A stretch of DNA of 34,324 bases from Micropruina sp. Lineage in GTDB: Bacteria; Actinomycetota; Actinomycetes; Propionibacteriales; Propionibacteriaceae. Position 1 is the stretch's first letter; each line of letters starts with the position of its first letter. Shown piece by piece: positions 2,628 to 29,555 of the stretch. A program made the translations under genes and the position numbers. The stretch lies in the NCBI GenBank assembly GCA_018055925.1, contig JAGPGQ010000008.1, forward strand, positions 1,399 through 35,722, given 5' to 3'. The notes under the pieces were generated by a model. The model was not told the origin of the DNA and searched no databases. It saw only the letters and a program-made list of their open reading frames with translations.

Positions 2628-3650
2628 GTGCCCGAACTCCCCGAGGTTGAGACCGTCCGGGCCGGCCTGGCCGGCGTGATCACCGGACGGCGGATCGTCG
2701 CCGTGACGGTGCTGCACCCGCGTCCCGTCCGCCGGCACGCGGACGGCCCCGAGGGGTTCGCGGCTGCGCTGGCCGGACGGACGTTCGCCGAACCGAGGCG
2801 CCGCGGCAAGTTCCTTTGGCTCCCGTTCGTGGACGGGGACGCGCTGCTGGCGCACCTCGGCATGAGCGGCCAGTTCCGGGTCGACGCCCCGTCCGCGCCG
2901 CTGCTGCCGCACACCCGGGTGTTGATCGACCTGGATCCCGGCGTTCCAGAAGGGACTGCGGATGGCAGAGATCCCGGCGTCCGCCGGGATGACGTGGATG
3001 GTGTCGGCTGGGGTGACGGGGGTGGTGGTGTCGGCTGGGGTGACGTCGGTGGCGTTGGCCCCGGTGATGGGGACGGTGACGGCGCGCGCCCGTCCATTTC
3101 GTCATCCCGGCGAACGCCGGGATCTCTCACCCAACTGCGCTTCGTCGATCAGCGCATGTTCGGCGGCCTGTCGGTCAGCCCCGGGGGAGCGGAGTTGCCG
3201 GCCGAGGTGGCGCACATCGGCCGCGACCTGTTCGACCCAGAATTCGATCTCGCGGCGGCGGTGCACACGATCCGCCGCAAGCGTTCCGCGATCAAGCGGG
3301 TGCTGCTCGACCAGCGGGTGGTCTCGGGCATCGGCAACATCTACGCCGACGAGGCGCTCTGGCGGGCACGGCTGCACTACGACCGGCCCGCGGACACGCT
3401 CACCGCCGCCAAGACCCGGGAACTGCTCGGGCACGCCCGGGACGTGATGACCGAAGCCTTGGCCCAGGGCGGCACGTCGTTCGATGCCCTGTACGTGAAC
3501 GTGAACGGAAGCTCTGGCTACTTCAGCAGAAGACTCGCGGTCTACGGACGCGAAGGGGAACCCTGCGATCGGTGCGGAAGGCCCATCAAACGGGTCGCGT
3601 TCATGAACCGTTCGTCGCACTTCTGCCCTGCCTGCCAGCGGAAGCGGTGA
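2628..3650 (+). CDS. mutM: Formamidopyrimidine-DNA glycosylase with an in-frame repeat insert
   Basis: This bifunctional glycosylase/AP lyase removes 8-oxoguanine and formamidopyrimidines. The N-terminus [11 protein letters not shown] carries the catalytic proline (exposed after Met removal) and glutamate; GKFLWL contains the conserved lysine; FVDQRMFGG is the DNA-intercalation loop; the helix-two-turn-helix is [12 protein letters not shown]; the C-terminus is a four-cysteine zinc finger (CDRC...CPAC). At 340 residues it is about 55-65 longer than typical relatives. The excess is one block between VLIDLD (about residue 104) and TQLRFVDQR, encoded by two opposed palindromic repeats (2968-2994 and 3100-3126) around a Gly/Asp-rich stretch. 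The reading frame is preserved and every catalytic motif remains, so the gene is probably functional, but the loop sits just before the DNA-contacting segment. GTG start, apparently leaderless. Confidence 0.95.
2968..3126. repeat. Compound palindromic repeat insert inside mutM
   Basis: Two copies of the window's palindromic element face each other: GAGATCCCGGCG-tcc-GCCGGGATGACG at 2968-2994 and the opposite orientation at 3100-3126. Each forms a stem with arms GATCCCGGC/GCCGGGAT. Between them is a G-rich tract containing an 18-bp direct repeat (3001-3018 and 3028-3045; period 27 bp). The whole unit is 159 bp, or 53 codons, so it keeps the mutM frame. Just upstream (2935-2946) is a degenerate partial copy (GATCCCGGCGT). 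Confidence 0.9.
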
Positions 3651-3811: not shown

Positions 3812-4099
3812 ATGTCCGGGTACAAGCTCGACCGACAGCTCGCCGAGTTCGGCGAGCACGTGCGCGGCTGGCGCATGGTGCTGGGCCTGACGGCCCAGCA
3901 GGTGTCCGAGCGCGCCGGCATCACACGGGACACCCTGCGCAAGATCGAGACCGGCGACCCGGGCGCGGGGTTCGGGAACGTCGCCCAGGTGCTGCGCGCC
4001 CTCGGCGTGCTCGACCAGGTGGTCGAGGCCGTCGACCCGCTCGGCAGCGACATCGGCCGCCTGCGCGCGGGCAGGCTCGCGAAGAAGCGCGCGCGATGA
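3812..4099 (+). CDS. hipB: HipB-like antitoxin, XRE-family DNA-binding protein
   Basis: This 95-residue protein has a Cro/C1-type helix-turn-helix at about residues 13-65 (MVLGLTAQQVSERAGITRDTLRKIETG), followed by a basic C-terminus (GRLRAGRLAKKRAR). Its position before hipA, with an ATGA overlap of stop and start codons (4096-4099), is the standard HipBA arrangement. The antitoxin would bind the HipA kinase and the operator around 3756-3795, repressing its own operon. The pair interrupts the usual mutM-smc neighbourhood, which suggests acquisition as a unit. Confidence 0.85.
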   Translation: MSGYKLDRQLAEFGEHVRGWRMVLGLTAQQVSERAGITRDTLRKIETGDPGAGFGNVAQVLRALGVLDQVVEAVDPLGSDIGRLRAGRLAKKRAR

Positions 4100-5337
4100 C
4101 CACCGTCGAGGTCTTCGTCGACCGGGCGGGGGAGCCGGTCTTGGTAGGACAGGCGCACTTCACCCGGATACGAGGCCAGGTTTCCACGACGTTCCTTTAT
4201 GACCCGGGCTACCTGGCAGGCGACGGGACGAGCATCGACCCGGCCTTGCCGCTCGTCGCAGGCGCGCAGCACCAGGCGGGTCTGGTGCGGGCCTTCGCCG
4301 ACAGCGCTCCCGACCGCTGGGGTCGGAACCTCATCGAGAAGGCCGAGCGCGCGCGTGCCCGTGACGAGGGCCGAGCGCCGCGCCGGCTGGACGACCTCGA
4401 CTTCCTTCTGGGCGTCAGCGACGACACCCGTCAGGGAGCCCTGCGGTACCGGCTCGCAGACAGCACGGCGTTCCTCGGCAAGCCCGCGCGCGTCCCCCAA
4501 CTGGTGTCGCTACCGGAGCTGCTGCGCGCCTCGGACGAGCTGGCCACCGACGAGGACCCGGGCCGGGCCGTCAAGCAGCTGTTGGACACGGGCACGACCG
4601 GCCTGGGCGGCGCACGCCCGAAAGCCTCCGTGCGCCTCGAGGACGGATCCCTCGCGATCGCGAAGTTCCCGCACGGCAGCGACCAGTGGGACGTCATGAC
4701 TTGGGAGGCGACGGCGCTGGACCTGCTGGAAGCCGCGGGGATCAGGACTCCGCAGCGCCGCCTCACCCGGGTCGGGGAGCGTAGCGTGCTGATCCTGCGC
4801 AGGTTCGACCGAGCCGAGGGAGAGCGCAGAATCGGCTACATCAGCGCCATGACGGCGCTCGGGGCCACCGACGGCGAGCACCGCGACTACGCCGAGATCG
4901 CCGAAGCCATGCGAGACCTCTCCCGCTCGCCCAAGGCAGATCACCACGAGCTCTTCGACCGCGTCGTCGCGAGTGTCGTTCTCGGCAACACGGACGACCA
5001 TCTGCGCAACCATGGCTTCCTCGCGGACCGCGGCTCCTGGACCCTGAGCCCTGTGTTCGACGTCAACCCGAACCCCGATCCGTGGCGAGCCCGCTCGACC
5101 TTGATCATGGGGGCCGACGCGCCGCCCGACGAGGCCGAGGCTCTGCTTGCCCTCGCGGACGAGTGCAGCCTCAATCCCGCTCAGGCGCGCGAGCGGACGG
5201 CGCGCGTAGCCGGAGCGGTCGCCGGGTGGCGCGACGCCGCTCGGAGGAACGGCGTCCGCGAGCAGGAGATCACGATGATGGCCGACTCGATCGCGCCGCG
5301 CTTGGACGCGGTGATCACCACCGCGAGCAAGGCGTGA
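4096..5337 (+). CDS. hipA: HipA-like toxin, serine/threonine kinase
   Basis: A 413-residue HipA-family kinase. E. coli HipA phosphorylates glutamyl-tRNA synthetase; the substrate here is unknown. The N-terminal subdomain holds FLYDPGYL and LGVSDDTRQGALRY. A Gly-rich segment TGLGGARPKASV lies near residue 170, followed by the ATP-contacting lysine in AIAKFPHG. The catalytic motif is VLGNTDDHLRNHGF (N, D, H and N residues of the kinase loop, about residues 295-308), and the metal-binding aspartate is in PVFDVNP. All expected catalytic residues are present, so the toxin looks intact. In the Gly-rich loop, where E. coli HipA has its inhibitory autophosphorylated serine, threonines are found. The ATG at 4096 overlaps the hipB stop; the frame stays open upstream only through hipB. 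Confidence 0.9.
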   Translation: MTTVEVFVDRAGEPVLVGQAHFTRIRGQVSTTFLYDPGYLAGDGTSIDPALPLVAGAQHQAGLVRAFADSAPDRWGRNLIEKAERARARDEGRAPRRLDDLDFLLGVSDDTRQGALRYRLADSTAFLGKPARVPQLVSLPELLRASDELATDEDPGRAVKQLLDTGTTGLGGARPKASVRLEDGSLAIAKFPHGSDQWDVMTWEATALDLLEAAGIRTPQRRLTRVGERSVLILRRFDRAEGERRIGYISAMTALGATDGEHRDYAEIAEAMRDLSRSPKADHHELFDRVVASVVLGNTDDHLRNHGFLADRGSWTLSPVFDVNPNPDPWRARSTLIMGADAPPDEAEALLALADECSLNPAQARERTARVAGAVAGWRDAARRNGVREQEITMMADSIAPRLDAVITTASKA

Positions 5338-11280: not shown

Positions 11281-11369
11281 CCGGCGACCTTCGTCGAACC
11301 GGCGACCTCGGTCCGGCGACCGCGAACCACTGGCCTCGTCGACCGGCGACCCTGGGTCCGGTGACCTCG
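11281..11369. repeat. Degenerate CCGGCGACC direct repeats
   Basis: CCGGCGACC or a one-base variant occurs five times in about 85 bases (near 11281, 11299, 11313, 11341 and 11359), with irregular spacing of 13-30 bp. It lies directly before the palindromic pair at 11368-11448, in the gap between convergent genes. Confidence 0.6.
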
Positions 11370-11448
11370 TCATCCCGGCGAACGCCGGGATCTCTCCACC
11401 GCTCTGGGCGGTCGTTGAGCGAGATCCCGGGGCAAGCCCGGGATGACG
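11368..11448. repeat. Pair of opposed palindromic repeats between convergent genes
   Basis: One copy of the CGTCATCCCGG...GGGATCTC element lies at 11368-11394 and an opposed copy (GAGATCCCGG...GGGATGACG) at 11421-11448. Each is a strong hairpin on its own, and the two can also pair with each other around a 26-nt loop. The location between the stop codons of the 11005-11244 gene and the minus-strand methyltransferase would suit a bidirectional terminator, although no U-tract follows. Confidence 0.8.
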
Positions 11449-11456
11449 GGGGCCGA

Positions 11457-20505: not shown

Positions 20506-20534
20506 GGACGCCCCTGAGTCTCTCGGGGGCGTCC
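20506..20534 (+). terminator. Strong hairpin between khpA and rimM
   Basis: GGACGCCCC (20506-20514) pairs with GGGGCGTCC (20526-20534). The interior GAG/CTC pairs extend the stem to about 12 bp around a TCT loop, with one mismatch. A short pyrimidine-rich run (ACGCTTTC) follows rather than a clean U-tract. It probably terminates or processes the transcript, separating rpsP-khpA from rimM-trmD expression. Confidence 0.6.
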
Positions 20535-20554
20535 ACGCTTTCACGAGGAGCCGG

Positions 20555-21064
20555 ATGAGCCAGGTCGACGTGGTCGTCGGGACGGTCGGTCGGGCCCATG
20601 GCCTGCGCGGCGAACTCGTCGTCCGGGTGCGCAGCGACTTCGTCGACGAGCGATTCGCGCCCGGGGCCGAACTGCGTCGGGACACCGTGGACGGGGCCCG
20701 GCTCCGGGTCGTCCGGAGCCGCTGGCAGTCCGGGACGCTGATCGTCGCGTTCGAGGGAGTCGGCGACCGTTCCCGGGCCGAGACGCTGCGCGGCACCGAC
20801 CTGTGGGCCCGGGTGGAGGCCACGGAGGACAGCGACGGCGGCATCCACGACGCGGCCCTGGTCGGCCTGGACGTGCGCAGCGGGGGCGTCTCCCGGGGGC
20901 GGGTGATCGCCGTCACGCACAATCCGGCCCAGGACCTGCTGGTCGTCGAGACGCGCGAGGGGGAGCGCCTGGTGCCGTTCGTCGCCGAACTGGTCCCGCA
21001 GGTCGACCTGGCCGGCGGCTACGTCGAGGTGGTCGCGCTGCCCGGCCTGCTCGAGGAGGCGTGA
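20555..21064 (+). CDS. rimM: Ribosome maturation factor RimM
   Basis: The 169-residue 16S rRNA processing protein binds S19 during 30S head assembly. The N-terminal barrel begins [25 protein letters not shown], which is the family signature. The C-terminal PRC-barrel spans about residues 95-165 ([65 protein letters not shown]). GAGGAG precedes the ATG at 20555. The stop overlaps the trmD start by one base (TGATG), indicating coupled translation. Confidence 0.96.
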
Positions 21065-21810
21065 TGCGGCTCGACATCGTCAGCATCTTCCCGGACTACT
21101 TCGCCCCGCTGGAGCTCTCCCTGGTCGGCCGGGCGATCCGCCGCGGCCTACTGGAGGTGGCGGTGCACGACCTGCGCCGCTGGACGCACGACCGGCACCG
21201 GACCGTGGACGACACCCCCTACGGCGGCGGCGCCGGCATGGTGATGAAGCCCGAACCGTGGGGCGAGGCGCTCGACGACCTGCTGGCCGAGGACGATGGC
21301 ACGGGGATCCCGGGTCGAGCCCGGGATGACGGGCGGCTGGGCGAAGCCGCGGCCGACCCCGTGCTGGTGGTGCCCACCCCGTCCGGCCTCCCGTTCACCC
21401 AGGCGCTGGCCCATGATCTGGCCGGCGAACGGCGGCTGATCTTCGCCTGTGGCCGTTATGAAGGCATCGACGCGCGGGTCGTCGAGCATGCCGCCGGCCG
21501 GCTGCGGGTGCTTGAGGTGAGCCTCGGCGACTACGTGCTGAACGGGGGAGAGGTCGCCGCCCTGGCGATCATCGAGTCCGTCGTCCGGCTGCTGCCCGGG
21601 GTGCTCGGCAACCCGGCGTCCCTGGTCGAGGAGTCGCACGCCGCCGGACACGACCGGCTGCTCGAATACCCGGTCTACACCAAACCCGAGACCTGGCGCG
21701 GACTCACCGTGCCGGCCGTCCTGCTGTCGGGCCACCACGGCGAGGTCGCCGCGTGGCGGCGCGCGCAGGCAGAGGAACGCACCCGCGCCCGCCGTCCCGA
21801 CCTGCTCTGA
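21064..21810 (+). CDS. trmD: tRNA (guanine-37-N1)-methyltransferase with an in-frame repeat insert
   Basis: The SPOUT methyltransferase makes m1G37 in tRNAs and prevents frameshifting. Conserved blocks are [31 protein letters not shown], the trefoil-knot SAM site [13 protein letters not shown], and [31 protein letters not shown]. The 248 residues are close to normal length. At about residues 81-90, in the loop between [11 protein letters not shown] and VLVVPTPSG, the sequence [10 protein letters not shown] is encoded by a copy of the palindromic element (21304-21331). The frame is maintained and no catalytic residue is lost, so activity is expected. The element adds about ten residues to a variable surface loop. 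Confidence 0.96.
21304..21331. repeat. Palindromic repeat inside trmD
   Basis: GGGATCCCGGG-tcga-GCCCGGGATGACG lies wholly within the coding sequence, on a variable loop. Unlike the inserts in mutM and the NRPS it is a single copy. Confidence 0.9.
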
Positions 21811-22511: not shown

Positions 22512-22536
22512 CCGCAGTGGGGTTGTCGCCGGCGCC

Positions 22537-22948
22537 GAGATCCCGGATCGAGTCCGGGATGACGAAGCGTCTCGTCATCCCGGCCGGGATCTCGGGGGTT
22601 TCCGGGTCGCGTGGGGATCCCGGATCGAGTCCTGGATGACGTGGTGGGTGCAGGACGACGAAGCGTCTCGTCATCCCGGCGTAGGCCGGGATCTCGGGGG
22701 TTTCCGGGTCGCGTGGGGATCCCGGATCGAGTCCTGGATGACGTGGTGGGTGCAGGACGACGAAGCGTCTCGTCATCCCGGCGTAGGCCGGGATCTCGGG
22801 GGTTTCCGGGTCGCGTGGGGATCCCGGATCGAGTCCTGGATGACGTGGTGGGTGCAGGACGACGAAGCGCTTCGTCATCCCGGCGTAGGCCGGGATCTCG
22901 GGGGTTTCCGGGTTGGGGTGGGGATCCCGGATCGAGTCCGGGATGACG
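22537..22948. repeat. 102-bp tandem array of palindromic repeats
   Basis: Successive units start with CGTCTCGTCATCCCGG at 22568, 22664 and 22766, and with CGCTTCGTCATCCCGG at 22868. The first unit is 96 bp because it lacks six bases of the hairpin loop; the next two are 102 bp. Each unit holds two palindromes: a CGTCATCCCGGCG-tag-GCCGGGATCTC form and a GGGATCCCGG-atcgag-TCCTGGATGACG form. Because 102 is divisible by three, several frames stay open (for example repeating [14 protein letters not shown]), but no start, codon pattern or homology supports a protein. It fills 22500-22981. Confidence 0.93.
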
Positions 22949-22981
22949 TGTTGGGGACGACGTGGCTGGGACGGTGAGTGT

Positions 22982-25900
22982 TCAGTCCAGGCCGAGGGCG
23001 TCCACCAGGGCGGCGCCGACGCGGTCGGCGACCGGACGGCGCAACAGCGCCCCGTGGGTGGCGTCGATGGGCACCGTGCTGACTCGTCCGGACACGTACG
23101 GTGCCCAGCCGCCGGCCGACAGCCAGGTCTCGGGACGCGGCGCCGTGGCTACCAGCACGGTGAGGTCACCGTCCAGCACATCGTGCCGGGAGCCCCGGAC
23201 GATCCGGGTCGCCTCGACCACCGACGCGATGCAGCCGTCCAGCACCGGGGTGGGCAGCGCACCCAGCGCGCTGCCCTGCCGGCGCAGCTCCTCGCGCACC
23301 ACCGGCCGGGTCAGCTCGGCGCCCTCGGGGGCGTCCAGGCCACCCAGCCGCAGGATGCCGAGCAGCGCCTCCGACTCGGTCGGTTCGGCCAGGTGCCGCC
23401 ACTGGTCGGACGGATACGCGTCGATCAGCACCGCCCGGGCGCGCTGCCCGAGCCGGGCCGCGGCACAGGCGACCGCATGCGCCGCCATGCCGCCCAGCGA
23501 CCAGCCCGCGACGTGGAACGGGGCGCCGCCGATCACCTGCCGGATCGCCAGCAGTTGCCGCTCGGCCAGCGCGGTCAGGTCCGCCGCCGGCTCGGGACGG
23601 CCGGCCTCCAGCCCGGGCGTCTGCAGGGTGTACACCGGTGTGCCCGCCGGCAGCGAGGCCAGCAGGGTGGTGTAGCACCAGCCGAGGCCACCCGCCGGTG
23701 GCAGCAGGAACAGTGGGGTCGCGCCCGCCGCCCCGCGGCGCAGCGGCAGGACGGCCTCGAACTCCTCGCCGGGCGCCTCGCCGCGCAGCACCGCGGCCAG
23801 CGCGGACGGCGTGGAGTGGGCGAACACGTCCGCGATCCGCAGCGGCACGCCGAAGGCGGTCTCGGCGGCGCCCATCAGCCGCAGTGCGCTGAGCGAGTCG
23901 CCGCCCAGATCGGTGAAGAAGTCGGCGTCGGCCGGGACCGGCGCGCCCTGGCCGGTCACCTCGGCCATCAACTCGCCGACCCGCTGCTCGGTGAGCGTCC
24001 GGGCGCCGGCCCCCACCGGGCTGAGTTGCGGCAGGCCGCGGGCCGCCAGCGTGCGCCGGTCCGCCTTGCCGCTGGCGGTGACCGGCAGCTCCTCGACGGC
24101 GATCAGGTGGCTGGGCACGAAGGACGCCGGCAGCCGGCTCTCCAACCGCTGCCGCAGCGCGGCCTCCGCGCCCTCGGCGGAACTCACGAACCAGAGCACC
24201 AGGACGGAGCTGCCGGCGGCGTCCGGGACCACGCCCGCGCACCAGGCATCGACTCCCGGCACGCCCGCGGCGGCGGCCTCGATCTCGCCCAGTTCGATCC
24301 GTTGGCCCCGCACCTTCACCTGGTCGTCCACCCGGCCCAGGTAGCGCAGCGCACCGTCGGCCCGCCAGGCGGCCAGGTCACCGGTGCGGTACATCCGTTC
24401 ACCCGGGACGAACGGGTCGGCGACGAACCGCTCCGCGGTCAGCTCCGGGCGTCCGACGTAGCCGTGGGCCAATTGGACGCCGGCCAGGTACAGTTCGCCG
24501 GCCACCCCGACCGGTACCGGACGGCGCCCGGCGTCCAGCACGTAGGTGCGGGTGTTCCAGATCGGGACGCCGATCGGCACCTCGTCCTCGGCCGGATCGG
24601 TGTCCCAGCAGGTGACGTCGACGGCCGCCTCGGTGGGTCCGTACAGGTTCACCGGCGGCACGCCCAGCACCTCGACGCAGCGCCGCACGTCGGCGCCGGT
24701 GAGCGCCTCCCCGCTGCACACCAGGTTGCGCACCCGGCCCTCACCCAGCCGGGCGCAGGCCACCGGGTCGGCCAGCAGCGCCCGCAGCATGGAGGGCACG
24801 AAGTGCAGCGTGGTCACCTCGTGCTCGACGACCAGGTCGGCGATCCGGCGCGGGTCGCGGTGGGCGTCCGGCTCGGCGATGACGACCGTGGCGCCCACCT
24901 GCAGCGGCCAGAACAGCTCCCACACCGACACGTCGAACGAGATCGGCGTCTTGTGCAGCACCCGCTCGCCGGGGGCGAGCCGCAGGTGGTGCTGCATCCA
25001 GGCGAGCCGGTTGTCGATCGCCCGGTGACCGACCAGCACTCCCTTGGGACGTCCCGTCGAGCCGGAGGTGAACAGCAGATAGGCGGGATCGTCCGGGCCG
25101 ACCGGGGAGGGGGCCCCGAGGGTGAGGGTCGGGGATCCCGGGTCGAGCCCGGGATGACGGGGAACTGCAGCGGGAGGGCGAGGACCTTCAGCGGGAGGGC
25201 GAGGACCTTCGTCATCCCGGCGAACGCCGGGATCTTGGGCCGGCTCGGACGCGGGCGAGCCCGGTCCGACCTCGCTCAGGCTCAGGGCAGGGACGCCGGC
25301 CGTCGGAGGTTCGCCGTCGTGGACGACCAGGACGCAGCCCGAGTCCTCGACCATGGCGGCGATCCGCTCGGCGGGCAGTCCCGGCTCCAGCGGAAGGTAC
25401 ACCGCGCCCAACCGCTGCACCGCATACAACGCCTCGTACAGGCCGAGGCAACGCGGCAGCGCGAGCCCCACCACGTCGCCGGGCCGGACGCCGCGACGTT
25501 CCAGCTGCTCCGCGATCACCGCGGCACGCGCGGCCAGTTCGGCATAGCTGGACGTCCGGTCGCCGAAGATCAGCGCGGTCTGCTCGGGTGTGGCCGCGGC
25601 CTGTGCGGCGAACGCCTCCGGCAGGGTCCGGGGCTCGACCGGGTGGCCGGTGGCGTTGAAGTCCTCGACCACCAGCCTCCGCTCGGCGTCGGTGAGCAGC
25701 GGCAGTCCGGCGAGGTCGGCATCGGCGGCCGCGCCGGCCATGGTGTCCAGCCAGGCCTCGAACCGGGCCAGGTGCAGCTCCATCTCGGCGGGCTCGTAGA
25801 GCCGCGGGTTGGCGTCCAGTTCGAGCCGCACCTCGTGGCCCCGACCGGGGATGCCCCGCAGGCACCACGTCATGTCCTCGACGGGGCCGGCGGTCAGGTT

Positions 25901-26956
25901 GATCACGCCGCCGGGCAGCCCGCCGAAGTCGAGTTCCAGGTCGAACGGCACCAGGTTCACCTGCGGGCCGAACAGCTGGGCGCCGGGCAGCCGCCGGCCC
26001 AGCAGCCGCGACAGCGTCTCCTGCCGGACGAACGGGTGCGGCCGCAGCTGCTCCTGCCCGCCGCGGACCCGCGCCAGGGCGTCGCCGAGCGGGCCGGCGG
26101 CCGGGACGGTCAGCGGCAGCACGTTCATCGCGGTGCAGACGGTCCGGCCGGACGGCAGCGTGCCGCGGCCGGGCACCGACCGGTTCATCAGGGTGACCCC
26201 GACGCGGACGTCGGCCGCGCCCACCATCCGGCCCAGGTAGCCGCCGACCGCCGCGGTGAACACGTCGGCCCAGGTGACCCCGAGCCGGCGTGCGCCGGCG
26301 ACCAGTGCCCGCTGGGTGGCATCGTCCAGGACCCGGTGGGCGCGGATCGCCCGGGACGCCGGCCCGGCGGTGCGCCCGGAGAGCGCCGGGACGCTCTCCA
26401 TCCGCTCGATCCGCGCCGTCCAGAACTCCAGCCCGGCCGCGTCCTCACCCGGATCGGCGGCCACCAGATCGGCCAGCGGGATCCCGGTCGCGGGCGTGGG
26501 GTCGGCGTAGGCGGCGGCCACCCGGCGGAGCAGCTGGACGGCGCCGAAGCCGTCCAGCACCGCATGGTGGGCGGCGTGGTACCACCAGCTGGTCCCGTCG
26601 GCCAGCCGCAGCAGGGCAGCGCGGACGCAGTCGCCGGCAGCCAGGTCCATCGGGCGGGCCAGGTCGCGTTCGCACCAGGCCCGGGCCTCGGCCTCGTCGG
26701 CCACCCGGGCGACCACCAGGCCGGGACCGGCGCCCGGCAGCACCTGCTGCTGCGGGCCGTCCGGGGTCAACCGGAACCGGACGCGCAGCTGTTCGAACTC
26801 GGCGTAGGCCGTGGCCAGCGCGGTCGCCAGCCGGGCCTCGTCGAGGGTACCGGCGACGCGGACCGCCTCGGCGGTGGTGTAGCAGGGGTTGTCCGGTTCG
26901 AGGGCGTGGGCCAGATAGATGCCGCGCTGGGCGGCGGTGAGCGGCAGCCAGGTCAC
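22982..26956 (-). CDS. entF: EntF-like siderophore NRPS (C-A-PCP-TE), serine-specific by code
   Basis: A 1324-residue single-module synthetase. Condensation domain (1 to about 440): MTWLPLTAAQRGIYLAHAL, with active-site HHAVLDG near residue 130. Adenylation domain (about 450-985): A3 YLLFTSGSTGRPKG, FDVSVWE, NLYGPTEAAVDV, YRTGDLAAW and the late catalytic Lys (ASGKADRR). Carrier domain: DLGGDSLSALRL (Ser near 1018). Thioesterase: GWSLGGMAAH (Ser near 1152), Asp in LIDAYPSD, His in DATHGALL. Reading the ten specificity positions by eye gives D-V-W-H-V-S-L-V-D-K, one change from the EntF serine code, so a dihydroxybenzoyl-serine product is likely. In-frame palindromic repeats (25132-25236) interrupt the A domain before A3. 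The GTG at 26956 overlaps the dhbB stop by 4 nt; the longer open frame upstream only runs through dhbB. Confidence 0.93.
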   Translation of the reverse strand: MTWLPLTAAQRGIYLAHALEPDNPCYTTAEAVRVAGTLDEARLATALATAYAEFEQLRVRFRLTPDGPQQQVLPGAGPGLVVARVADEAEARAWCERDLARPMDLAAGDCVRAALLRLADGTSWWYHAAHHAVLDGFGAVQLLRRVAAAYADPTPATGIPLADLVAADPGEDAAGLEFWTARIERMESVPALSGRTAGPASRAIRAHRVLDDATQRALVAGARRLGVTWADVFTAAVGGYLGRMVGAADVRVGVTLMNRSVPGRGTLPSGRTVCTAMNVLPLTVPAAGPLGDALARVRGGQEQLRPHPFVRQETLSRLLGRRLPGAQLFGPQVNLVPFDLELDFGGLPGGVINLTAGPVEDMTWCLRGIPGRGHEVRLELDANPRLYEPAEMELHLARFEAWLDTMAGAAADADLAGLPLLTDAERRLVVEDFNATGHPVEPRTLPEAFAAQAAATPEQTALIFGDRTSSYAELAARAAVIAEQLERRGVRPGDVVGLALPRCLGLYEALYAVQRLGAVYLPLEPGLPAERIAAMVEDSGCVLVVHDGEPPTAGVPALSLSEVGPGSPASEPAQDPGVRRDDEGPRPPAEGPRPPAAVPRHPGLDPGSPTLTLGAPSPVGPDDPAYLLFTSGSTGRPKGVLVGHRAIDNRLAWMQHHLRLAPGERVLHKTPISFDVSVWELFWPLQVGATVVIAEPDAHRDPRRIADLVVEHEVTTLHFVPSMLRALLADPVACARLGEGRVRNLVCSGEALTGADVRRCVEVLGVPPVNLYGPTEAAVDVTCWDTDPAEDEVPIGVPIWNTRTYVLDAGRRPVPVGVAGELYLAGVQLAHGYVGRPELTAERFVADPFVPGERMYRTGDLAAWRADGALRYLGRVDDQVKVRGQRIELGEIEAAAAGVPGVDAWCAGVVPDAAGSSVLVLWFVSSAEGAEAALRQRLESRLPASFVPSHLIAVEELPVTASGKADRRTLAARGLPQLSPVGAGARTLTEQRVGELMAEVTGQGAPVPADADFFTDLGGDSLSALRLMGAAETAFGVPLRIADVFAHSTPSALAAVLRGEAPGEEFEAVLPLRRGAAGATPLFLLPPAGGLGWCYTTLLASLPAGTPVYTLQTPGLEAGRPEPAADLTALAERQLLAIRQVIGGAPFHVAGWSLGGMAAHAVACAAARLGQRARAVLIDAYPSDQWRHLAEPTESEALLGILRLGGLDAPEGAELTRPVVREELRRQGSALGALPTPVLDGCIASVVEATRIVRGSRHDVLDGDLTVLVATAPRPETWLSAGGWAPYVSGRVSTVPIDATHGALLRRPVADRVGAALVDALGLD
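25132..25236. repeat. Compound palindromic repeat insert inside the NRPS gene
   Basis: GGGATCCCGGGTCGAGCCC...GATGACG (25132-25159) and an opposed CGTCATCCCGGCG...GGGATCTT (25210-25236) enclose two exact 21-bp repeats (25168-25188 and 25189-25209). The unit is 105 bp (35 codons) and keeps frame on the minus strand, encoding [19 protein letters not shown] and following residues just before the A3 motif. The design matches the mutM insert: two opposed palindromes around a small tandem repeat. Confidence 0.92.
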
Positions 26957-27861
26957 GGGACGGGCACCGGCAGCTGCCGAGACAGGAACGCCACCGTCGG
27001 CTCGACGGTGAACGCCGCGAAGTCCACCTGGACGCCCTCGTCGGCCAGCTGGTCCAGCAGGTCGAAGGCCCGCAGCGAATCCAGCCCCAGCCCGAACAGG
27101 TCGCTGTCGGGCCGGGCGAACGCCAACGCGACGTCGGCCGGATCGAGGAAGCCGGCCAGGATGCCGCGCAGCACTTCGTCCGACCCGTCCGGCACGCCGG
27201 CGTCCACCGGCGGGGTGGGCGGGGTGAGCGCAGCCAGCACGTCGGCGGTGGTGGTGACCACGCCGGTGCAGGCGGCGATCTGGGCGAGCGCCCGGGCATG
27301 GTGCTCGGCACCGAGGTCGGCGACCGCATCGGCGATCACGAACGGCTGCACGTCGCGGGTGAACGCGTCGTAGGCGGTCGCGGTGATCCCGATGTGCGCG
27401 TACACCCCGGTCAGCACCAGCTGGTCGCGGCCGCGTTCGCGCAGCAGGTCGTCCAACTGGTTGCCGGCGAAGGCGGTGTAGCGGTGCTTGGCGAGCACCG
27501 CGTCGCCCGGCTCGGGGGCCAGCGTGGCGACCACGGCGGTGTCCGTCGGGTCGGCGGTCATGCCGGGCCCCCACAGGTCGCCCTGCAGGCCGCGCGTTCC
27601 CGGCTCCTGGTCCCCGGCCTGCGCGGTGTAGATCACCGGCATCCCGGCGGCCCGGGCCGCGCGCAGCAGCCGTCCGATCGAGGCCAGGGCAAGCTCGAGC
27701 GCCGGGCAGGCCGGGGCGAACGGACGCAGGAAGTACGCCTGCAGGTCGTGCACCAGCAGCGCCGCCCGGGACGCCTCGAGCCGCCAGGGCGCCCGGCTGG
27801 CCGGCAGCTCGGCGAGCGGCGGCACGGGCGCGGAGTAGTCGATGTCGGCGGGTAGCGTCAT
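26953..27861 (-). CDS. dhbB: Isochorismatase with aryl carrier domain (DhbB/EntB)
   Basis: The 302-residue bifunctional protein hydrolyses isochorismate to 2,3-dihydro-2,3-dihydroxybenzoate, and its carrier domain accepts activated 2,3-dihydroxybenzoate. The isochorismatase half has LLVHDLQAYFLRPF (catalytic Asp), AKHRYTAFAGNQLDDLLRERGRDQLVLTGVYAHIGITATAYDAF (Lys and substrate loop) and PFVIADAVAD. The aryl carrier at about 220-302 carries LFGLGLDSLRAFDLLDQL, with Ser262 the predicted phosphopantetheine site. Length matches EntB/DhbB. The ATG at 27861 overlaps the dhbE stop (ATGA), and its own stop overlaps the NRPS GTG, so the enzymes should be made in linked amounts. Confidence 0.95.
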   Translation of the reverse strand: MTLPADIDYSAPVPPLAELPASRAPWRLEASRAALLVHDLQAYFLRPFAPACPALELALASIGRLLRAARAAGMPVIYTAQAGDQEPGTRGLQGDLWGPGMTADPTDTAVVATLAPEPGDAVLAKHRYTAFAGNQLDDLLRERGRDQLVLTGVYAHIGITATAYDAFTRDVQPFVIADAVADLGAEHHARALAQIAACTGVVTTTADVLAALTPPTPPVDAGVPDGSDEVLRGILAGFLDPADVALAFARPDSDLFGLGLDSLRAFDLLDQLADEGVQVDFAAFTVEPTVAFLSRQLPVPVP

Positions 27862-29555
27862 GCGGGTCTCCCAGTCGTTCGGGGCGGTTCGGTGAAGCGC
27901 TCGGTGAGCAGCGCGCGCAGGTCGCGCCTGGAGTTCTTGCCGACCCCGGTGGCCGGCAGTTCGCTGAGGAAGCGGTACTGATCGGGCAGTTTGAAGGTGG
28001 CCAGCCCGGCGGACCGCAGGGTGGCGCCGAGTTCCCGGGCCAGCCCGCTGCCGCGGCCGGCGGCGTCCTCGGCGGACGCCCGGCCGGCCTCGTCCGGCAC
28101 GATGAACGCGCAGGTTCGCTCGCCCAGGTAGTCGTCCGGCAGGCCGACCACGACGGCGTCCCGGACGGCCGGGTGGGTGAGCAGCAGGTCCTCCACCTCG
28201 GCGGCGGCGATCTTCTCGCCGCCCCGGTTGATCTGGTCCTTCACCCGGCCGGTCACCACCAGGTGCCCGGTGGGCAGCTGCCGGACGAGGTCGCCGGTGA
28301 CGTAGAAGCCGTCGTCGGTGAACGAGACCCGATTGGCGGCGGGATCGCGGTAGTAGCCGCGGATCGTGTAGGGACCGCGGGTCTGCAGCACCCCCTCCGC
28401 GCCGGGTGCCACCACGACGCCGGTCTCCGGATCGACGATCCGCAGCTCGTCGTCGGGGCTGATCGGCAGGCCCTGGCTGATCCGGACGATGTCGTCCGGA
28501 TCGCCGGCGCGGGTGTAGTTGACCAGGCCTTCGGCCATGCCGAACACCTGCTGCAACCCGACCCCCATCACCGGGCCGATGTCGTCGGCCACGGCGGGGG
28601 CCAGTTTGGCGCCGCCGACCTGGAGCAGTTCCAGGCTGTCCAGCCGGGGCGGACGGCGGCGGGCGGTCGACAGCCACGCCTGGGCCAGCGGCGGCACCAG
28701 CGACGCGATCGTGACCCGTTCGCGCTCGATCAGGTCGAACGCCGTCCGCGGGCTGGGGTCGGGGGCCAGGACGATGCTGCCGCCGACGTGCAGCACGCCG
28801 AGGATGCCGGGCGACGACATCGGGAAGTTGTGCGCCACCGGCAGCACCACCAGCAGCCGGCTGTCGGCGGTCAGCCCGCAGATCGTGGCCGACTCGCGGA
28901 CCGAGTACAGATAGTCGGACGCGGTGCGCGGGATCAGCTTCGAGATGCCGGTGGTGCCGCCCGACAGCTGCAGGAAGCCCACCTCCTCGGGCTCGCGCGG
29001 CGCGGGGACGGCGGCGCCGGCGGCCGGCGGCCGCTGCACATCGACCAGCAGCGGCGGGGCGACCCCGTCCAGCCGGGCCGCGACCACGGCGTGCAGGCCG
29101 CGGAAGTCGACCCCGTCCGCCAGCCCGCAGACCACGTGGGCGGCGGCGTCGGCGATCCGGCAGAACTGGGCGAGTTCGCGCTCCCGGTGTCCGGGCAGGG
29201 CGAACACCGGCAGCGCGCCGATCCGGAACAGGCCGAAGACGACCGGCACGAACTCGACGATGTTCGGCAGCTGCACCACCACCCGGTCACCCGCCCGGAT
29301 GCCCAGGCCGCCGAACCGGCCGGCCCACAGCTCGATCTGGTCCTCCAGGTCGCCGTAGGTCCAGCGCACCGGCCGGCGGCCGGCGTCCGTTCCGATCACG
29401 GCCACCCGGCCGGCGTGCTCGCTCGTCCGGGCCCGCAGCCATCCGTCGAAGGTCTCCGGCAGCCAGTGGCCCAGCCGGCGGTAGCGATCCCGGAACTCCT
29501 CCGGCCAGGTCGGCGAGTCGGCCAGCGGCGAGCGGGCCGGCAGTGCGCGGCTCAT
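27858..29555 (-). CDS. dhbE: 2,3-dihydroxybenzoate-AMP ligase (DhbE/EntE)
   Basis: The 565-residue ANL-superfamily enzyme adenylates 2,3-dihydroxybenzoate and loads it onto the carrier domain of DhbB. N-terminus: TWPEEFRDRYRRLGHWLPETF, as in EntE. A3 phosphate loop: LQLSGGTTGISKLIPRT (about residue 198). Substrate pocket: LPVAHNFPMSSPGILGVLHVGG, whose Asn is typical of aryl acid-activating domains. Later motifs: QQVFGMAEGLVNYTR, YVTGDLVRQ, GRVKDQINRGGEKI and the C-terminal catalytic Lys in ATGVGKNSRRDL. It is slightly longer than EntE. The ATG at 29555 overlaps the dhbC stop by 4 nt and gives the family N-terminus; the frame upstream of it is the antisense-free shadow of dhbC. Confidence 0.95.
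   Translation of the reverse strand: MSRALPARSPLADSPTWPEEFRDRYRRLGHWLPETFDGWLRARTSEHAGRVAVIGTDAGRRPVRWTYGDLEDQIELWAGRFGGLGIRAGDRVVVQLPNIVEFVPVVFGLFRIGALPVFALPGHRERELAQFCRIADAAAHVVCGLADGVDFRGLHAVVAARLDGVAPPLLVDVQRPPAAGAAVPAPREPEEVGFLQLSGGTTGISKLIPRTASDYLYSVRESATICGLTADSRLLVVLPVAHNFPMSSPGILGVLHVGGSIVLAPDPSPRTAFDLIERERVTIASLVPPLAQAWLSTARRRPPRLDSLELLQVGGAKLAPAVADDIGPVMGVGLQQVFGMAEGLVNYTRAGDPDDIVRISQGLPISPDDELRIVDPETGVVVAPGAEGVLQTRGPYTIRGYYRDPAANRVSFTDDGFYVTGDLVRQLPTGHLVVTGRVKDQINRGGEKIAAAEVEDLLLTHPAVRDAVVVGLPDDYLGERTCAFIVPDEAGRASAEDAAGRGSGLARELGATLRSAGLATFKLPDQYRFLSELPATGVGKNSRRDLRALLTERFTEPPRTTGRPA

Follow-up and report, generated by a model that had tools for sequence, protein, structure and literature searches.

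A pair of CGTC-tagged REP palindromes lies in frame within MutM of a Micropruina genome and is probably a tolerated insertion from a repeat family expanded in the genus

The mutM gene of Micropruina sp. contains a block of extra codons that is probably a tolerated, lineage-specific insertion of a pair of CGTC-tagged REP palindromes, from a family that has expanded in this Propionibacteriales genus. The gene lies in the window analysed here (the whole stretch of 34,324 nucleotides from contig JAGPGQ010000008.1), which belongs to a draft genome of 391 contigs that is 89% complete (G000). The analysis shows the repeat family and how many copies it has, where the block sits in frame and, in a structure model, in a loop, and that such repeats recur in other genes and in sister species.

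mutM (Fpg) occupies positions 2628–3650 of the forward strand and encodes 340 aa in a single open frame with a GTG start. The product has the three Pfam domains of MutM/Fpg (N-terminal, H2TH and zinc-finger) and keeps the conserved PELPE start, lysine and cysteines. Every column invariant across 34 aligned MutM sequences is also kept, as the sequence-only reading of this DNA had stated for the catalytic motifs. Alignment with relatives defined the insert as 65 codons (residues 103–167, window 2934–3128, + strand, ~195 bp). It ends seven residues before the DQRMFGG segment (D174); the same reading had placed it immediately ahead of the loop that contacts the lesion. Directly downstream of mutM (window 3812–5337), an HTH (HipB-like) regulator is followed by a HipA-like protein, likely a toxin-antitoxin pair.

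The core of the insert consists of two opposed 28-nt arms that are 96% complementary, each arm palindromic in itself, separated by 105 nt; the earlier claim of a palindromic repeat pair in frame within MutM was thereby borne out. Seven 12-nt inverted seed pairs within 250 nt were found in the real 301-nt region, and only 13 of 1000 first-order Markov copies contained any. REP copy 1 (2967–2994, – strand) and REP copy 2 (3100–3127, + strand) both have the CGTC tag inward and are translated as RDPGVRRDD and SSRRTPGS. The G/T-rich spacer between them (2995–3099, + strand) contains an internal direct repeat and codes mainly for Gly, Asp and Val; some similarity matches elsewhere in the genome run from a REP into part of this spacer. 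A probable half-REP, GATCCCGGCGTTC, recognised as an inverted repeat with 13 nt exact (2934–2946), lies upstream of the first full REP (2934–2966, – strand); its similarity is weak, at 20/36 identities at an offset of 36, a level that 1% of window positions attain. With this half-REP lying ahead of the first full palindrome, the insert exceeds the 159 bp first proposed, while the description of two opposed palindromes stands. Nor is the block a single 159-bp element: it is made up of two full REPs and a probable half-REP, belonging to a family of which the genome contains 217 exact copies. Rfam models at gathering score gave no match across the window.

A structure model was built from the 34 aligned sequences (mean pLDDT 85), as the sequence-only reading had suggested. 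The model placed strands at residues 96–102 and 168–174 with the insert between them, at a beta-hairpin turn. pLDDT was 30–47 for the ten-residue blocks of 111–160 and at least 94 for 23 of the 27 blocks outside 101–170, the exceptions being 1–10, 281–300 and 301–310. The best solved-structure matches of the model core are MutM proteins (top match 1r2y_A, TMt 0.92, rmsd 2.2). The predicted picture is of a disordered extension of the hairpin turn on an otherwise ordinary MutM fold, and MutM with the insert probably still works.

The segment that runs from GMSGQ to the following strand was compared in 30 MutM loci, the window's own included (of 37 genomes matched). It measures 93 aa in the window, 58 aa in sister G004, 44 aa in sister G002, 47 aa in a genome of another family (G028) and 31–36 aa in the remaining 26 of the 30. 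The block is absent from most relatives examined. A family-wide search matched MutM in 146 of 157 genomes at the cut-off, several with partial matches only; among the matches listed, only those of G000 and G004 were split in two at the insert loop. The MutM of G126 (locus L086) has a 66-aa stretch, with the extra residues partly in a different sub-loop.

The type 1 REP palindrome, CGTCATCCCGGCGNNCGCCGGGATCT, occurs in 217 exact copies in G000, and the reversed pattern in none; when only the last C of the CGTC tag was required, the count rose to 249. Its stem-loop is ATCCCGGC-GAAC-GCCGGGAT. Interspersed among the type 1 copies is a subtype 2 with the stem-loop ATCCCGGG-CTCGA-CCCGGGAT (CCCGGG-CTCGA-CCCGGG). 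The repeats share the features of the CGTC superfamily, with CGTC at one end, a stem of 8–9 bp beginning AT and a loop of 4–5 nt. Exact type 1 copies number 0, 23, 44, 57 and 114 in the sister genomes G001, G002, G003, G004 and G005. The repeat was found in five of the six genomes of the genus searched and in 7 of 157 of the family; two of the 151 family genomes outside the genus carry it (4 and 1 copies). One genome in a phylum sample of 396, G000 itself, contained the repeat, the sample holding no further member of the host genus.

Of 134 tagged copies in the sampled stretches, 117 have CTC as the unpaired tail and none has CCA. Neighbouring REPs within 300 bp are arranged head-to-tail in 56 of 69 pairs, with tags inward in 7 and outward in 6. 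Elsewhere in the window, a type 1 and a subtype 2 REP form a pair at 11366–11451 without a spanning open frame having 90 nt on both sides, and three type 1-like and two subtype 2 REPs form an array at 22533–22951, just past the 3' end of a nonribosomal peptide synthetase (NRPS) frame. At another locus (L065, 1006–1248) subtype 2 and type 1 REPs alternate regularly (2,1,2,1,2,1,2) with a 74-bp period in a mosaic array.

Mobilisation by a RAYT was considered and is unsupported, as no Y1 transposase (PF01797) was found in the draft G000; the missing part of this draft could contain one. None was found in G001, G002 or G004 either (G000, G001 and G004 being incomplete genomes). G003 and G005 have one PF01797 match each, and no REP occurs in those 3.3-kb loci. 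A recurrent gene beside the REPs was considered and rejected as well. Among 186 coding-like frames near REPs, three groups recur in more than one locus (5, 3 and 2 members); judged from one or two scanned members per group, they are ABC transporters, DUF222-HNH proteins and tRNA synthetases. The three-member group lies near the REP clusters of loci L029, L076 and L143, the L029 member having the DUF222 and HNH domains.

REPs inside other conserved genes of G000 were surveyed in 106 REP clusters from the window, stretches around similarity matches and part of the 249 places. With at most 2 mismatches allowed, these clusters comprise 194 copies of type 1 and 101 of subtype 2; 101 of the clusters were testable. 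Six of the 101 testable clusters lie inside conserved genes, with a coding-like frame on both sides; the sample was not random, and this share is not a genome-wide rate. The six scored at least 0.17 for coding and all others at most –0.12. All six REP-bearing frames have Pfam matches, and none was found in 7/7 lower-scoring spanning frames scanned. An earlier pass with type 1 only, which excluded the other window clusters, gave 4/95 (one of the four loci being present twice). The host genes encode MutM, TrmD, an NRPS adenylation domain, a proteasomal AAA ATPase, NnrE/NnrD and a dihydrolipoamide acyltransferase, the last with its REP site in the linker behind the lipoyl domain. In the window, the trmD frame (20518–21807) contains a subtype 2 REP at 21307–21327 (– strand), and the adenylation domain contains a subtype 2 REP (25135–25155) and a type 1 REP (25214–25233), a pair spanning 25135–25233 and read as DPGVRRDD ... 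RHPGLDPGS. The NRPS module (22985–28240, – strand) comprises condensation, adenylation, carrier and thioesterase domains, and its in-frame REP pair stands shortly before YLLFTSGSTG, which we take to be an adenylation core motif.

Five of the six frames of the type 1 REP are open (for loops AA, GA, CA and TA), and the REP peptides of the host genes are translated from at least four different type 1 frames. The sequence-only reading was incomplete in that MutM is one of six conserved genes with such inserts. Selection for one peptide is unsupported, because the peptides are read in several frames. The length divisible by three, which the sequence-only reading took as a sign of selection for frame, is uninformative, since any survivor in an open frame must show it.

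The same loops were compared in the sister species (G001–G005) for MutM, NnrE/NnrD, the AAA ATPase and the acyltransferase. The MutM loop of G004 holds an inverted pair of an unrelated repeat, GGTYGAGCYTGTCGARACC, which occurs in 440, 408 and 148 exact copies in G001, G004 and G005 and is rare in the other three genomes of the genus (8–19 copies; 9 in G000). The loop is short in G001 and G005; in G003, the sister of highest identity, a contig end within mutM prevents a judgement. A candidate decayed copy of the second repeat in the G002 loop is only suggestive, matching at 15 of 19 positions, a score reached by 6 of 5000 loop shuffles but also by 4 of 230 windows of the locus. The NnrE/NnrD loop carries one REP of each kind (type 1 and subtype 2) in G000, a lone subtype 2 REP at the same place in G004 and an array of the second repeat in G005, and is short in G001, G002 and G003. 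The acyltransferase linker has one common arrangement in G000 and G003 (the G003 gene being split across two contigs) and another in G005; no REP was seen there in G001, G002 or G004. A tree of four proteins grouped G000 with G003 and G004, then G002, then G005, with weak supports of 60–89. On this tree no single gain accounts for all the patterns; the same sites must have seen repeated gain, loss or exchange. The MutM and NnrE/NnrD loops vary so much that they delimit neither an empty site nor a target-site duplication, which MITEs combine with terminal inverted repeats.

The AAA ATPase has a REP at the same site, in the same orientation and in the same frame (HPGERRDL) in G000, G003, G004 and G005, and none in G001 and G002. 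A 24-nt in-frame stretch of this REP is identical in all four species, although the surrounding stretch differs in both length and sequence. The gene was chosen for its near-perfect G000 copy, so that G000 itself does not count as independent of the search, in contrast to the other three species. Identity in all four species was seen for 2 of 142 in-frame 24-nt windows upstream and 0 of 92 downstream; third positions agreed in 63–81% of pairwise comparisons, and the longest identical upstream runs, of 28 and 26 nt, lie in a conserved part. The shared frame and orientation point to one ancestral insertion, and the identity of the REP to conversion by other copies or to selection at the DNA level.

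These observations raise the idea, which we regard as rather unlikely, that the loops are targets, either through preferential REP insertion at DNA sites or through DNA-level selection that keeps REPs there beyond mere tolerance. Two unrelated repeats do share the loop of MutM (G000 and G004) and of NnrE/NnrD (G000 and G004, and G005), and the ATPase REP sits at one site in four species with its 24-nt stretch unchanged. However, MutM loop length also varies in relatives without any recognised repeat, and tolerance alone predicts some recurrence. Moreover, the ATPase frame and orientation fit a single ancestral insertion plus gene conversion, and the conserved upstream region of the ATPase gene likewise has identical runs of comparable length. 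The broader proposal, that certain enzyme loops are shared landing or maintenance sites for unrelated palindromic families, colonised, lost and recolonised, with a translated copy held identical at the DNA level by conversion or targeting, is put forward as a doubtful conjecture.

A decaying mutM pseudogene is improbable. A 65-codon insertion in a conserved gene might be so read, and three other sites in the genome partly resemble the C-terminal half of MutM (32–38%), so that relaxed selection on MutM is possible; yet the frame is open, both parts flanking the insert are 71–81% identical to the genes of G001, G002, G004 and G005, and the invariant columns are kept. We consider it very improbable that the peptide encoded by the insert was co-opted and alters how MutM functions. 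Its end close to the DQRMFGG segment would suit such a role, and altered activity has been proposed for intragenic REPs in repair genes (PMC3733652); against it stand the predicted disorder, the different repeat in G004, the short loops of G001 and G005 and the several REP reading frames. Least credible is an assembly artefact. The genome is a draft, and at least 8 contigs have REPs within ~400 bases of an end, but the insert runs without a break, and in frame, inside a 35.7-kb contig, and other assemblies have inserts at matching sites of other genes, including the single 3.8-Mb contig of G005 (which has no insert in MutM itself).

For the preferred reading, a tolerated insertion, we envisage that REP copies would spread to new sites. 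With five of its six frames open, a type 1 REP that lands in phase within a surface loop or linker can be read through in translation, and copies elsewhere in genes would be removed by purifying selection. In MutM, the REP insert would lengthen the beta-hairpin turn as a disordered Gly/Asp-rich loop, and the protein would remain folded and probably active. REPs that have entered a gene may duplicate locally, giving half-REPs and tandem copies; the half-REPs next to full REPs in MutM and the ATPase suggest local slippage. Resident REPs may then stay identical through gene conversion with the many other copies. The sister species offer the same enzyme loop short, with one repeat or with another, and the old question of whether selfish repeats in proteins are tolerated, targeted or useful becomes directly testable.

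The sequence-only reading held that repeats adding peptides to conserved proteins are rare outside Rickettsia. This is contradicted by Di Nocera et al. (2013; PMC3733652), which reports CGTC and GTAG REPs inside genes, repair genes included, in several species, and equates the Rickettsia palindromic elements (RPEs) RPE-6 and RPE-4 with CGTC-1 and CGTC-4 repeats. The CGTC REPs described there resemble ours in the tag, the 8-bp stem starting AT and the 4- or 5-nt loop, and also in being mostly intergenic, some in frame in genes, with no linked transposase known; by stem and loop length, type 1 corresponds to CGTC-1 and subtype 2 to CGTC-2. The hosts listed in that paper for CGTC repeats are Proteobacteria, Chlorobi, Bacteroidetes, Spirochaetes and Thermotogae, unlike the actinobacterial host here. 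The tail also differs (CTC here and never CCA, which most CGTC REPs fit), as does the arrangement (mostly head-to-tail here, whereas head-head dimers predominate and head-tail pairs are negligible there), both features being typical rather than defining of the class. Neisseria dRS3, a CGTC-1 repeat, is alike in tag, architecture and large clusters, and unlike the G000 REPs is not described as an in-frame insert in the sections of that paper drawn on here. GTAG REPs with RAYTs share the short palindromes, pairs, clusters and intragenic cases; here, however, the tag is CGTC and the draft G000 yielded no Y1 transposase. RPEs are likewise in-frame palindromes within conserved proteins (PMC3733652, PMC10969869), and are described in the part of PMC10969869 used here as ~150 bp with a conserved peptide; in contrast, several frames are used in G000 and the corresponding loops of sister species carry an unrelated repeat. 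The main text of PMC3733652 mentions neither mutM nor formamidopyrimidine, Actinobacteria or Propionibacter, and a literature search found nothing joining repetitive extragenic palindromes with CGTC and Actinobacteria, or in-protein insertions with Propionibacteriaceae. Intragenic CGTC REPs are already known from other phyla (PMC3733652); what is new is the extension of REPs in protein-coding genes to an actinobacterial genus, together with the head-to-tail arrays and the repeated colonisation of the same loops.
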